NCBI RefSeq assembly: GCF_016863115.1 | Contig: NZ_BOOG01000016.1 | Coordinates: forward strand, 1 to 64,000 | Direction: 5' to 3' | DNA: 64,000 nucleotides | DNA from: Sphaerimonospora thailandensis | GTDB taxonomy: Bacteria; Actinomycetota; Actinomycetes; Streptosporangiales; Streptosporangiaceae | Shown here: piece by piece, positions 1 to 30,028 of the stretch | How positions within the stretch are numbered: position 1 is the first letter of the stretch | Layout: each line of letters starts with the position of its first letter | The notes under the pieces: generated by a model | Told to the model about the DNA's origin: nothing | What the model saw: the letters and a program-made list of their open reading frames with translations, nothing else | The model's database searches: none | Translations under genes and position numbers: made by a program

Positions 1-520
1 CGCCGCACAACTCCAGCCGCAGCGTCTCGGTCATCGACGTCTGGGCGTGCTTGGCGGCGCAGTAGCCGCCGCCCCCCTCGTAGGAGACGAGCCCGGCGAC
101 CGACGTCAGCATCACCAGCACGCCGTCGCCCGAGGCGATCAGCTTCGGCAGCAGGGCCCTGGTCATCCGCAGCGAGCCGAGCACGTTCACGTCGTACATG
201 CGCTGCCAGTCGGCCACCCGTCCGGCGGCGACCGGTTCCAGGCCGATCGCGCCGCCGGCGTTGTTCACCAGCACGTCGCAGCGCTCGAGCGAGGCGGCCA
301 GGGCGTCCACGGACTCCTGCGAGGTCACGTCCAGCGTCGCGGCCCGGACCCCGGGGACCTCGTCGGCCAGTTTGTCCAGCCGGTCGCGTCGCCGCGCCGC
401 CGCCACCACCTCGAACCCCTCGGCGGCGAGCCGCCGGGCGGTCGCCTCGCCGATCCCGCCGCTCGCGCCGGTCACCACCGCGGTCCTGCGCTTCGTCACC
501 GCAAACCGTCCTTCTCGCAT
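1..520 (-). CDS. SDR family oxidoreductase, C-terminal end outside window
   Basis: This is the N-terminal ~170 residues of a classical short-chain dehydrogenase read on the minus strand; its 3' end lies beyond position 1. The Rossmann cofactor motif TGASGGIG follows the start, NNAG lies in the middle, and the catalytic YCAAK (Y-x3-K) is near the window edge. The ATG at 520 is used here; a GTG at 499 would also leave the TG-x3-G-x-G motif intact. The gene diverges from mshA. Substrate cannot be told from the sequence. Confidence 0.85.
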
Positions 521-26718: not shown

Positions 26719-27672
26719 ATGGCACTACGGGCTGCGTTCGGTGTGTGTAAAGCTGACGAGGTGGAGACCCTGATCCGAGCGATATTGACGGGCGAAAAGG
26801 ACCAGCTTGGCCAGATACCCGCGGCTGATGTGGCCAAGCTGATTCTGGGGCTGCAGCAGGCACTGGCGGCAGCCGCATCGACTGTGGTGCGTCAGCGTCG
26901 CAAGGGAGTAACCGGTAGGCATCCGGCAGCGATCGAGGCCGCCTCTCGACTTGCCTTCCGGGGGGTCGAGCCGGGGAGCGTTCAGACCCTGTTCGCTCTC
27001 CCGGACCTCGGCGCTGACGCCGACGGCGACTCATTCGAGTTCGGGGATATTCCGGATCTTGCTCAGCTGGCTTTCGACCGACTGGTGCGTTCATTCTCCT
27101 CCAGCGACCCTGACCCCACGCTCGCCAGGGCTATCGCCAAACTGGGCGATGAACTCAACGTGGGCTCGGGCGGCCGTACTCTGCGGCTTGTCTCCGGAAA
27201 CGGCATGTCCTCCGGAATCCTCGACCATTCGGTACGGGTCCGCATGAATCGCTATATTCGCAAGCAACCCGTCCAGCGTGACGACGTCCTCGTCGGCAGT
27301 CTCGTCGAAGCCGACTTCGAGAGGCACACCGCTCGACTTCAACCCGCGGCGGGGCCACCCGTCCAGGTCACCTTCCCTGAAGAGATGGCGGACGCTGTTC
27401 AAGAATGTCTTCGGCGTATTACCGAATTTACCGGAAATGTCACATTTGATCCTGGGTCGCTGGTGGCCTTGAAGATCGAGCTTGACAGGCTGTCCGCAGC
27501 CGATCCTCTCGAGTTGGAGATCGAGAGTGATTCCTTCTGGCATCATCAGACGGTCGACCAGTTGGCGCGAGAGCAAGGGGTTCGCGGCCCGCAAAGGATC
27601 GAAGACTTGCATACTGATCTGAAGCTCACCTCGGAGGAGATCGAAGCGTTCTTCGCTGTGGTCGACGAATGA
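26719..27672 (+). CDS. 317-aa protein paired with a PIN-domain toxin; putative antitoxin-like partner
   Basis: A soluble protein whose stop overlaps the start of a PIN-domain gene (ATGA). Three parts are visible. An N-terminal helical region (~1-110) contains LILGLQQALAAAASTVVRQRRKG. A middle beta-rich segment (~190-265) is patterned as a small barrel: VLVGSLVEADFERHTARLQP, then GPPVQVTFPEEMADAV and ITEFTGNVTFDPGS. The C-terminal tail QTVDQLAREQGVRGPQRIED resembles toxin-binding tails of PIN-partner antitoxins (inference). It is much longer than usual VapB antitoxins (70-100 aa). No ribbon-helix-helix or AbrB domain is recognised, so DNA binding and autoregulation are uncertain. Confidence 0.65.
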   Translation: MALRAAFGVCKADEVETLIRAILTGEKDQLGQIPAADVAKLILGLQQALAAAASTVVRQRRKGVTGRHPAAIEAASRLAFRGVEPGSVQTLFALPDLGADADGDSFEFGDIPDLAQLAFDRLVRSFSSSDPDPTLARAIAKLGDELNVGSGGRTLRLVSGNGMSSGILDHSVRVRMNRYIRKQPVQRDDVLVGSLVEADFERHTARLQPAAGPPVQVTFPEEMADAVQECLRRITEFTGNVTFDPGSLVALKIELDRLSAADPLELEIESDSFWHHQTVDQLAREQGVRGPQRIEDLHTDLKLTSEEIEAFFAVVDE

Positions 27673-28112
27673 CACCCGCAGACGTGCCAGGCGGTCCCCT
27701 CCTGGTGGACACCAATGTCGCCTCCTTCGTGTACCTTCAGAAGCCGAACAGCGGATGGGAGAATTTCGCGGCGCTGATGCAAGGCCACGTGCTGTGCATG
27801 AGTTTCGCCTCGGTCGCCGAGATGTTGGTCATGGCCCACCGGAATTCATGGGGTCCTGCGAGAAGGCGCGACCTGATCAACCACGTGCGCCTGTATACCG
27901 TGCTCAAGTTCGATATCGAAGTATGCAAGACATGGGCACCCATGTACGCGAAGCTGCGTGGGCAGCTAAAGGGCGAGGGCGTCAATGATCTGTGGACAGC
28001 TGCATGTGCCATGGCGCAGAACCCGCCGCTCCCGATCATCACCGACGATCTCACAGATTTTGGAACGATCGGAAAGCATTTCGAGCTTACGCTTGTCCAC
28101 CCCACCCTTTGA
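27669..28112 (+). CDS. PIN-domain ribonuclease (VapC-like toxin)
   Basis: A 147-aa PIN-domain protein with the complete acidic metal site: Asp in LLVDTNVASFVY, Glu in SFASVAEMLVMAH, Asp in GVNDLWTAACAMA and Asp in IITDDLTDFGTI. Members cleave RNA, often tRNA or rRNA, when released from an antitoxin. The start overlaps the stop of the 317-aa partner gene by 4 bp, so the two are translationally coupled. No other toxin/antitoxin gene is nearby. Confidence 0.85.
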   Translation: MTPADVPGGPLLVDTNVASFVYLQKPNSGWENFAALMQGHVLCMSFASVAEMLVMAHRNSWGPARRRDLINHVRLYTVLKFDIEVCKTWAPMYAKLRGQLKGEGVNDLWTAACAMAQNPPLPIITDDLTDFGTIGKHFELTLVHPTL

Positions 28113-28217: not shown

Positions 28218-28595
28218 ATGATCGGCAGACTGCAGTGTGTGGTGGTGGACTGTCCTGACGCCTTGGAGCTCGCGCGCTTCTACCAGTCGGTCCTCGGAGG
28301 CGAGCTCAACCGGCCGGATCCCCGGTGGGCGCTCAGCGATGACTGGGCGACGCTGCACACCGACTCCGGCCTCGTGCTCGCCTTCCAGGGCGTGGATGAG
28401 TACGTGCCGCCCCGCTGGCCGGATCCGGCCCGTCCCCAGCATTTCCATCTGGACGTCGACGTGCCGGATCTCGACCGAGCCCAACGGCAGGTCCTCCGGC
28501 TCGGTGCCACGCTGCTCGACGACGGCGGCGGGACCCGTGGATGGCGGGTCTACGCCGACCCCGCGGGGCACCCCTTCTGTCTCGTACGCGGCTGA
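28218..28595 (+). CDS. VOC family protein, copy 1 of a duplicated pair
   Basis: A 125-aa glyoxalase-like protein: CVVVDCPDALELARFYQSVL opens it, WATLHTDSGLVLAFQ and HFHLDVDVPDLDRAQRQVLRLGA form the second half, and it ends [19 protein letters not shown] precedes the ATG. About 103 of 125 residues match the VOC protein encoded at 29651, with no gaps. The pair flanks the Clp_N and HTH genes. Activity unknown; the family includes metal-dependent lyases, dioxygenases and resistance proteins. Confidence 0.87.
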   Translation: MIGRLQCVVVDCPDALELARFYQSVLGGELNRPDPRWALSDDWATLHTDSGLVLAFQGVDEYVPPRWPDPARPQHFHLDVDVPDLDRAQRQVLRLGATLLDDGGGTRGWRVYADPAGHPFCLVRG

Positions 28596-28669: not shown

Positions 28670-29227
28670 TCAGGTCAGCCGGGTCCGGAGCATCGTGCGG
28701 AGAGATCGCGGGTCGATGCCGGCGTCGGTCATGACTCTCACCCCCAGGCCCTCGCCATCCCTGAGGATGCCGAGCAGGATGTGGCCATCGCGGATTTCCT
28801 TGCTCTTCATCGCGAGCGCCTCGCGCAGCGAAAGCTCCAGGGTTTTCTTCGCTCGGGAGGTGATGGGAATGTGGCGGCCGCTGCGCAGCGTCCCGCGATG
28901 ATTCAGGCTGGGCGGGCGGTCGAGGGAGCCAGGACCGAAGGCGGCCTCGACCTTCTCCCGGACGGCTGACAGGTCGATGCCGATCATCTCCAGGGCGTCG
29001 GCGTCGAGGTCTTCGGCCGGACTGCCCAGAAGCCGGGTGATCGAGTTGAGTGCCCGTTCGTGGTCGAGCCCGTGGTCGTTCAGCAGCTGCGCCGACAGGC
29101 TCTCGGGCTGCCGCAGGAGGCCCAGGAGCAGGTGTTCGGTGCCGATGTGGGTGTGACGCAGCCCTCGCGCCTCTTCTTGGGCACGCTTGACCACCTGCCG
29201 GGCATCCTCGGTGAAACGCTCGAACAT
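28670..29227 (-). CDS. Clp N-terminal-domain protein without ATPase
   Basis: A 185-aa protein with two Clp_N repeats and nothing else: MFERFTEDARQVVKRAQEEA to HTHIGTEHLLLGLLRQ, then RAKKTLELSLREALAMKSKE to GHILLGILRDGEGLGVRVM. Such stand-alone modules resemble ClpC/ClpA substrate-adaptor domains and may act as adaptors or decoys for Clp. ATG 29227 is 2 nt after the stop of the HTH gene (29230-29463), whose last codons carry the ribosome site, so expression is coupled. Confidence 0.87.
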   Translation of the reverse strand: MFERFTEDARQVVKRAQEEARGLRHTHIGTEHLLLGLLRQPESLSAQLLNDHGLDHERALNSITRLLGSPAEDLDADALEMIGIDLSAVREKVEAAFGPGSLDRPPSLNHRGTLRSGRHIPITSRAKKTLELSLREALAMKSKEIRDGHILLGILRDGEGLGVRVMTDAGIDPRSLRTMLRTRLT

Positions 29228-29229
29228 CG

Positions 29230-29463
29230 CTACTTCTCCCGCCTTATCAGTCCTCGTCCACCCGCGTACTTCTTGTGCACCGCCTGGCGCGAGACGCCCA
29301 GCAGCAGCGCGATGTCCTGCCAGGACCACCCCGCTTCACGTGCGTTCTCCACCTGGAGCGCCTCGAGCCGCTCGACCAGTAGTCGCAGTGCCCGTACGGC
29401 ACGCAGGCCGATGGCCGGGTCCCGGTTGCTCGCGTCGGCGGCCAACTTCGCCGTGTCGTTCAT
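29230..29463 (-). CDS. Small HTH protein coupled to Clp_N gene
   Basis: A 77-aa protein with N-terminal helices (AVRALRLLVERLEALQVENAR) and a C-terminal helix-turn-helix (GWSWQDIALLLGVSRQAVHKKY). It is the first gene of a two-gene operon with the Clp_N protein. Two identical palindromes lie directly upstream (29467-29509), the expected place for autoregulation. By family habit it is likely a repressor or activator of this operon and perhaps other stress genes. Confidence 0.85.
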   Translation of the reverse strand: MNDTAKLAADASNRDPAIGLRAVRALRLLVERLEALQVENAREAGWSWQDIALLLGVSRQAVHKKYAGGRGLIRREK

Positions 29464-29466
29464 GAT

Positions 29467-29509
29467 GTCAACCTACGTTGACGCGACTCGGCTGTCAACC
29501 TACGTTGAC
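29467..29509. promoter_or_regulatory. Two identical palindromic operators GTCAAC-N4-GTTGAC
   Basis: Two copies of GTCAACCTACGTTGAC at 29467-29482 and 29494-29509, 27 bp between equivalent positions, lie immediately upstream of the HTH gene start (29463). Arms are perfect and the central CTAC is identical in both. They probably bind the HTH protein. Confidence 0.8.
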
Positions 29510-29650: not shown

Positions 29651-30028
29651 GTGGTCGGCAACGTGCAGTGTGTGGTGCTGGACTGCTCCGATGCGGTGGC
29701 TCTCGCCCGCTTCTACCAGTCGATTCTCGGCGGCGAGGTCAACCGGCCCGATCCTCGCTGGAGGGTCAGAGACACCTGGGCGACACTGCACACCGCTTCC
29801 GGTCTGGTGCTCGCGTTCCAGGGCGTGGACGAGTACGTGCCGCCCTGCTGGCCGGATCCGGCCCGCCCGCAGCATTTCCATCTGGACGTCGACGTGCCGG
29901 ACCTCGACCAGGCCCAGCGGCAGGTCCTCCGACTCGGTGCCGCGTTGCTGGACGACGGCGACGGGACACGCGACTGGCGGGTCTTCGCCGACCCCGCCGG
30001 CCATCCCTTCTGCCTGATTCGCAACTGA
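29651..30028 (+). CDS. VOC family protein, copy 2 of a duplicated pair
   Basis: A 125-aa protein from GTG 29651 (AAGGGGGGAAG upstream), colinear with the gene at 28218 (about 82% identical by eye). CVVLDCSDAVALARFYQSIL, HFHLDVDVPDLDQAQRQVL and DPAGHPFCLIRN correspond. Differences are mostly conservative, so both copies are probably still under selection. It lies on the far side of the Clp_N/HTH operon, whose operators are about 140 bp upstream. Confidence 0.87.
   Translation: MVGNVQCVVLDCSDAVALARFYQSILGGEVNRPDPRWRVRDTWATLHTASGLVLAFQGVDEYVPPCWPDPARPQHFHLDVDVPDLDQAQRQVLRLGAALLDDGDGTRDWRVFADPAGHPFCLIRN

Follow-up and report, generated by a model that had tools for sequence, protein, structure and literature searches.

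A short operon in the DNA analysed here (a stretch of 64,000 nucleotides from Sphaerimonospora thailandensis, hereafter the window) couples a small helix-turn-helix (HTH) gene to a stand-alone double Clp_N gene and is a split relative of the ClpC2 kind of regulator. The operon is real, conserved and beyond chance. Sequence comparison gives firm support to its anatomy, its autoregulatory architecture, the spacer that differs from that of fused ClpC2 genes, and the covariation between recognition helix and operator. We think it probable that the operon is a two-gene counterpart of the ClpC2 autorepressor and sponge, that is, a self-repressed, ligand-induced Clp_N decoy.

Anatomy of the operon and its promoter

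The features of the operon, in window coordinates, are as follows.

28670..29227, reverse strand: stand-alone double Clp_N gene without ATPase (185 aa, P0002; ATG at 29227, stop at 28670)
28910..29011, reverse strand: insert between the two Clp_N repeats (P0002 residues 73-106), conserved, not seen in ClpC or fused ClpC2
29230..29463, reverse strand: HTH gene (77 aa, P0001; stop codon TAG), predicted DNA reader
29266..29289, reverse strand: predicted recognition helix of P0001 (modelled helix H59-66), whose residues 61 and 64 covary with the operator
29467..29482, no strand: proximal predicted operator, GTCAACCTACGTTGAC, identical to the distal one, spacer 4, edge 3 bp from the HTH start codon, conserved in relatives
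29470..29475, reverse strand: -10-like TAGGTT in the proximal operator, by sequence match
29493..29498, reverse strand: -35-like TTGACA in the distal operator, by sequence match
29494..29509, no strand: distal predicted operator, GTCAAC-CTAC-GTTGAC (TGTCAACCTACGTTGACG), spacer 4, exact copy, conserved in relatives

The P0002 start codon lies 2 nt past the P0001 stop codon. For P0002, Pfam reports two Clp_N hits (E 4e-27) and, along the 185 residues, not a single AAA module; lacking AAA+ modules, the protein is not a Clp ATPase of the ClpC, ClpA or ClpB type. P0001 reaches the curated cut-off of no Pfam HTH family, the best being HTH_23 with 24.1 against 24.6 bits. Two exact palindromes upstream of the pair had been pointed out in an earlier note on this DNA, and both are present at the positions listed. 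Their starts are 27 bp apart, which leaves a gap of 11 bp, and their arms are perfect inverted repeats around an asymmetric CTAC centre. Allowing up to three mismatches, the palindrome has five matches in the window, against 0.17 expected from shuffled sequence.

Both operators appear to double as promoter. The -35-like and -10-like boxes are 17 bp apart, and the transcript is probably leaderless, since the HTH ATG lies only 7 nt beyond the -10-like box. The pattern TTGACn-16..18-TAnnnT is found upstream of 74 of the 90 related HTH genes described below (0/90 in reversed sequence and 8/90 on the opposite strand as controls) and of 26/30 fused loci.

The modelled P0002 structure (pLDDT 88.6) matches ClpC N-domains with TM scores of about 0.9 by target length, including 0.92 for 8ibp_A, the M. 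tuberculosis ClpC1 N-domain with lassomycin. The insert looks like the final portion of a Clp_N unit and stands out as an extra partial repeat in alignments to ClpC N-domains; its L79, G83 and D85 are invariant in 32/32 aligned proteins. P0002 retains the equivalents of F2, R10 and E89 (ClpC1 numbering), F2 being invariant in all 32; F2 and E89, like F80, are cyclomarin-contact residues. The position of the cyclomarin contact F80 is Ile122 in P0002 and Phe in 27/32, among them the same-genus relative L004; elsewhere it is Val (L008, L048), Trp (L009) or Leu (L070). In a quick tree of 77 Clp_N domains, the split (32), fused (30) and ClpC (15) domains each lie on one side of a branch (SH-aLRT 90, 99 and 97). 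With the clades separate in this tree, the split family did not arise by a recent splitting of ClpC2.

Two VOC (Glyoxalase_6) genes on the other strand flank the operon (28218-28595 and 29651-30028; 82% identical), and the operon seems to sit between duplicated copies. This neighbourhood is local, as the 89 other HTH loci (stretches of ~3 kb) gave no VOC match, and a function tied to the flanking VOC genes was rejected on the same ground. At 26719-28112, a 317-aa open reading frame overlaps by a few bases a 147-aa frame that looks PIN-like by eye; the pair is perhaps toxin-antitoxin-like.

Distribution of the operator pair

Across the whole assembly (6.18 Mb, 99.28% complete), GTCAAC-N2..8-GTTGAC has five occurrences: two with N4, the only N4 sites in the genome, both at the window operon; two with N5 on contig 15; and one with N7 on contig 41. 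With exact sites so few, the regulon is essentially the operon itself. The exact palindrome is absent from clpP, clpC and other VOC genes, and the wider regulon suggested earlier was thus rejected at the level of exact sites. Two-mismatch scans gave 74 (N4) and 381 (N5) forward hits, against 52 and 164 for a reversed-pattern control, and are too noisy to call.

Downstream of the contig-15 sites, a single gene encodes an HTH-like domain fused to Clp_N. The C-domain of its product matches ClpC2 structures (E 1e-40 to 1e-54), and the N-domain matches 8ADA (Rv2667 residues 1-72; E 5.7e-31). By homology, the genome carries a fused ClpC2 homologue besides the split relative in the window. When P0001 is searched against the proteins of the genome, the fused gene ranks as second-best match (E 0.009), and the P0001 profile aligns to this ClpC2 with 95.4% probability over 45 columns (hhalign). 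The profile also matches 8ADA (E 5.4e-5); the HTH domains are homologous.

P0001 has matches (E<=1e-5) in 85/120 related genomes, and we examined 90 loci of the 144 matches (summed match counts). HTH-Clp_N fusions number 0/90, and the idea that the window pair arose from a frameshifted fused gene was rejected for this reason. Operators were scored on their core only, ignoring the two half-site bases under test. A tandem predicted operator pair with spacer 4 was found at 80 of the 90 loci, with centres 27 bp (33 loci), 28 bp (43) or 29 bp (4) apart. Of these 80 loci, 68 have a second (18-bp) site that stops 2-3 bp short of the start codon used, and 72 have a Clp_N match downstream. In 64 of all 90 loci, the distance between the HTH stop and the next start is -4 to +4 nt. 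The ten loci below the core-match cut-off were dropped: seven still agree with the operator code (L066, L088, L089, L092, L095, L098, L100), L070 and L091 have a single site, and L077 has none. With spacers 3-6 in competition, non-fused loci prefer 4 in 80/80 scorable cases and fused loci prefer 5 in 29/29; a further fused locus, L116, was left unscored and carries two n5 sites that lie nearer to each other. In at least 19 genomes, a spacer-4 HTH operon with Clp_N coexists with a fused gene from the spacer-5 set. The palindrome pair is therefore conserved upstream of orthologous pairs, on which the earlier proposal of autoregulation had been made to depend. Site conservation, helix covariation and a scan for the DNA pattern alone give good support to the predicted autoregulation, in which the HTH protein acts through the paired palindromes.

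Two groups of the dropped loci have features of their own. L092, L095, L098 and L100 form one paralogue group, whose operators are asymmetric and follow each other as mirror images (AAGCAAC..GTTGACT, then AGTCAAC..GTTGCTT or GTTGCTC); this suggests that the half-sites are unequal. In L088 and L089, the Clp_N-like partner runs in-frame into a domain that by eye looks SRPBCC-type.

The scan for the DNA pattern, which was blind to protein, returned at least 120 stretches with tandem GTCAAC sites in species genomes. An HTH of the P0001 family follows in 101/120 among the matches listed, and Clp_N too in 74. The other 27 of these 101 HTH loci among the matches listed have no detectable Clp_N downstream (L152 runs off the stretch). 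In L133, L154, L180, L198, L205 and L099, the HTH gene and operators precede an ABC-exporter-like gene with no Clp_N; several such loci are from Microbacteriaceae, and Pfam detects ABC_membrane in both partners scanned (L154, L099). The HTH with its tandem operator is thus a module able to drive other outputs, and Clp_N is dispensable for such operator control because the same HTH occurs with ABC exporters and other partners.

Among the sites listed, 19/120 have no such HTH nearby, and in L165, L167 and L193 one side ends within 62 bp. Six loci of Micromonosporaceae (L147, L177, L210, L186, L206, L188) have exact tandem GTCAAC-N4-GTTGAC sites with no HTH of the window type nearby and adjoin, by eye, Ada/AlkA-like repair genes, alpha/beta hydrolases, FAD monooxygenases or a serine hydrolase. 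These sites are perhaps trans targets, or belong to another regulator. Split pairs with tandem operators also occur in Alphaproteobacteria, in L140 (Devosia), L145 (Ensifer), L182 (Shinella) and a metagenome-assembled genome (L157), possibly by horizontal transfer.

The DNA-reading part

Paralogous pairs have the alternative half-sites GTCAGC, GTCAGG and GTCAAG. Of all alignment columns, HTH residue 61 shares the most mutual information with base 5 of the half-site, and residue 64 does so with base 6; both residues lie inside the modelled helix 59-66 (P0001 model pLDDT 88.9). Ala versus Ser/Thr at residue 61 tracks A versus G at base 5. Counted by half-site, Ala61 goes with A in 209/216, Ser61 with G in 34/52 and Thr61 with G in 38/48. 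Counted by locus, with one Gly61 locus excluded, two or more G half-sites are found in 0/54 Ala61 loci versus 24/25 Ser/Thr61 loci, and at least one in 4/54 versus 25/25 (Fisher 9.5e-17, ancestry not corrected for). At base 6, two or more non-C half-sites are found in 7/68 loci with Lys or Arg at residue 64 versus 12/12 with another residue.

A tree from which the helix columns were left out gives six changes each for residue 61 and base 5. Just three residue-61 changes fall on well-supported branches, so the Fisher values overstate independence; base 5 agrees in 2.9 of the three on average and is never opposite (p 0.25). Residue 64 changes twice on well-supported branches and base 6 changes 13 times, which makes this link the weaker one. 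In the GTCAAC matches listed, the 100 readable helices have Ala (90) or Gly (10) and no Ser/Thr at residue 61, and Lys (94) or Arg (6) at residue 64. Tandem GTCAGC occurs at five places in 394 genomes, 5/5 before an HTH-Clp_N pair with Thr61; four are new and one was already in the set of relatives. All share one helix sequence, so these loci are probably one clade.

In mycobacterial ClpC2, DNA binding has been assigned to the C-domain, to R185 and R189 (Taylor et al., PMC10030653). The N-domain crystal in that study comprises residues 4-72. The HTH profile aligns to 8ADA through the last residue of that structure, at profile position 57 and immediately ahead of the recognition helix, so the crystal fragment stops inside the HTH. 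The term helix-turn-helix is absent from the text of that paper (PMC10030653); an HTH region in ClpC2 was already remarked in the RelI paper (PMC13284704). A fold search with the HTH model gave generic HTH proteins only (best E 0.27; best Z 5.0, for E. coli Fis), and 8ADA and RelI were not among the matches listed. Covariation and homology favour the HTH over the Clp_N domain as the part that reads DNA in both split and fused forms. Covariation together with the DNA-only scan argues for the same reader, in tension with the C-domain proposal for ClpC2.

Mechanism and relation to known systems

We infer HTH DNA binding, HTH-Clp_N contact, a ligand, induction and decoy action as follows. The 77-aa HTH protein would bind both operators, presumably as a dimer on each palindrome, and, since these hold the -35 and -10 boxes, would shut off its own leaderless promoter. 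The Clp_N protein would be a copy of the ClpC N-domain that binds substrates and antibiotics. A ClpC-directed peptide antibiotic or an unfolded protein would occupy Clp_N and repression would be relieved, with HTH and Clp_N acting as one repressor complex or by another route. The operon would then be made in quantity, and Clp_N would soak up the ligand and spare ClpC. This explanation is supported by the ClpC2 precedent, in which autorepression is lifted by cyclomarin (PMC10030653). Ile122 at the position of ClpC Phe80, a cyclomarin contact, counts against it, though relatives mostly keep Phe there.

A less likely alternative is that the HTH protein represses alone and senses a signal itself or through its own turnover, with Clp_N as a regulated output, either decoy or ClpC modulator. 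The replacement of Clp_N by ABC exporters and other partners behind the same HTH and operators fits such a repressor, as does the confinement of the DNA-reading covariation to HTH residues. However, the tight gene linkage (64/90 loci, as above), the conserved insert found only in split-family Clp_N partners, and the control of fused ClpC2 DNA binding by ligand on its Clp_N-like domain (PMC10030653) all argue against it. It is rather unlikely, though compatible with the ligand-induced decoy, that Clp_N is a ClpC adaptor or anti-adaptor that tunes housekeeping proteolysis and is kept low by the HTH protein. P0002 has the full ClpC N-domain fold in its model and keeps the F2, R10 and E89 equivalents, and ClpC2 slows ClpC1-dependent casein degradation in vitro (PMC10030653); but the whole-genome scan places no exact operator at clpC or clpP, and the ClpC2 precedent favours ligand sequestration and self-control. 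The earlier note had Clp_N modulate ClpC/ClpP activity or detect its load. This is plausible in outline, but homology points more specifically to a ClpC2-like sensor or decoy for ClpC N-domain ligands.

We regard it as very improbable that the Clp_N domain reads the operator through the R185/R189 helix, as proposed for ClpC2 by Taylor et al., and that the HTH is a mere dimeriser. The R185A/R189A substitutions do weaken ClpC2 DNA binding, and their M. smegmatis equivalent raises clpC2 expression 2.0-fold (PMC10030653). On the other hand, operator bases covary with HTH residues, P0002 has Ala139 at the R189 position, which varies in relatives, and the R185 position is also Arg in ClpC. In the same study, C-domain-only and dimer-mutant proteins supported a need for the dimer in high-affinity binding, and R57A raised expression 4.6-fold (PMC10030653).

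A wider reading can be offered only tentatively: that a large actinobacterial family of split ClpC2-like sensor/decoy operons exists, absent from the literature searched; that its paralogues are insulated within a cell by an operator code (residues 61 and 64 reading half-site bases; spacing of 4 versus 5 for fused ClpC2); that the same HTH, not Clp_N, reads DNA in M. tuberculosis ClpC2; and that each paralogue may watch a different ClpC-directed antibiotic. ClpC1 is a target for antitubercular drugs, and ClpC2 provides rescue from cyclomarin. With the DNA-reading and ligand-binding parts placed on two proteins, the split family makes the ClpC2 reader and the route from ligand to DNA directly testable. 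The natural operator code predicts insulation of paralogues and offers small orthogonal repressors, and many actinobacterial operons are marked as candidate sensors of ClpC-directed natural products.

No description of the split form was found in the literature searched, judged by search entries and by parts of PMC12913811, PMC13284704 and PMC10030653. The earlier remark that isolated Clp_N proteins are poorly described holds for this form in that literature, but not for its fused relative ClpC2, which is well described (PMC10030653). The Streptomyces 'ClpC2' (PMC12607617) is a Clp-ATPase by its naming and hence a different protein of the same name.

RelI, the best PDB sequence match to the P0001 HTH profile (E 2e-7), is an actinobacterial short HTH related to ClpC2 and belongs to the RelS-RelI toxin-antitoxin system (PMC13284704). 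Its partner is a ribonuclease toxin whose gene comes first (PMC13284704), whereas the partner of the window HTH is Clp_N. With Clp_N, not a RelS (BrnT-like) toxin, as the linked partner, identity as a RelI-type antitoxin was rejected. P0002 shares with the ClpC (ClpC1) N-terminal domain its fold and the F2 and E89 positions, and differs in lacking the AAA ATPase, in its inter-repeat insert and in having Ile at the F80 position.

The closest known system is mycobacterial ClpC2 (Rv2667). ClpC2 is an autorepressor that cyclomarin releases from DNA and a sponge that protects ClpC1 (PMC10030653); it binds CGTCAAC-n5-GTTGACG sites beside the start codon, often in two copies (Taylor 2023, PMC10030653). 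It shares with the window operon the HTH and double Clp_N parts and the GTCAAC/GTTGAC half-sites, often doubled; in both, sites overlap the promoter, with autoregulation and leaderless transcripts, predicted for the split pair from its sequence. ClpC2 differs in being one polypeptide (the split form is two genes, fused in 0/90 related loci), in its operator spacer of 5 (29/29 scorable fused loci) rather than 4 (80/80 scorable split loci), in lacking the interdomain insert, and in having its Clp_N parts in a clade separate from those of the split form.
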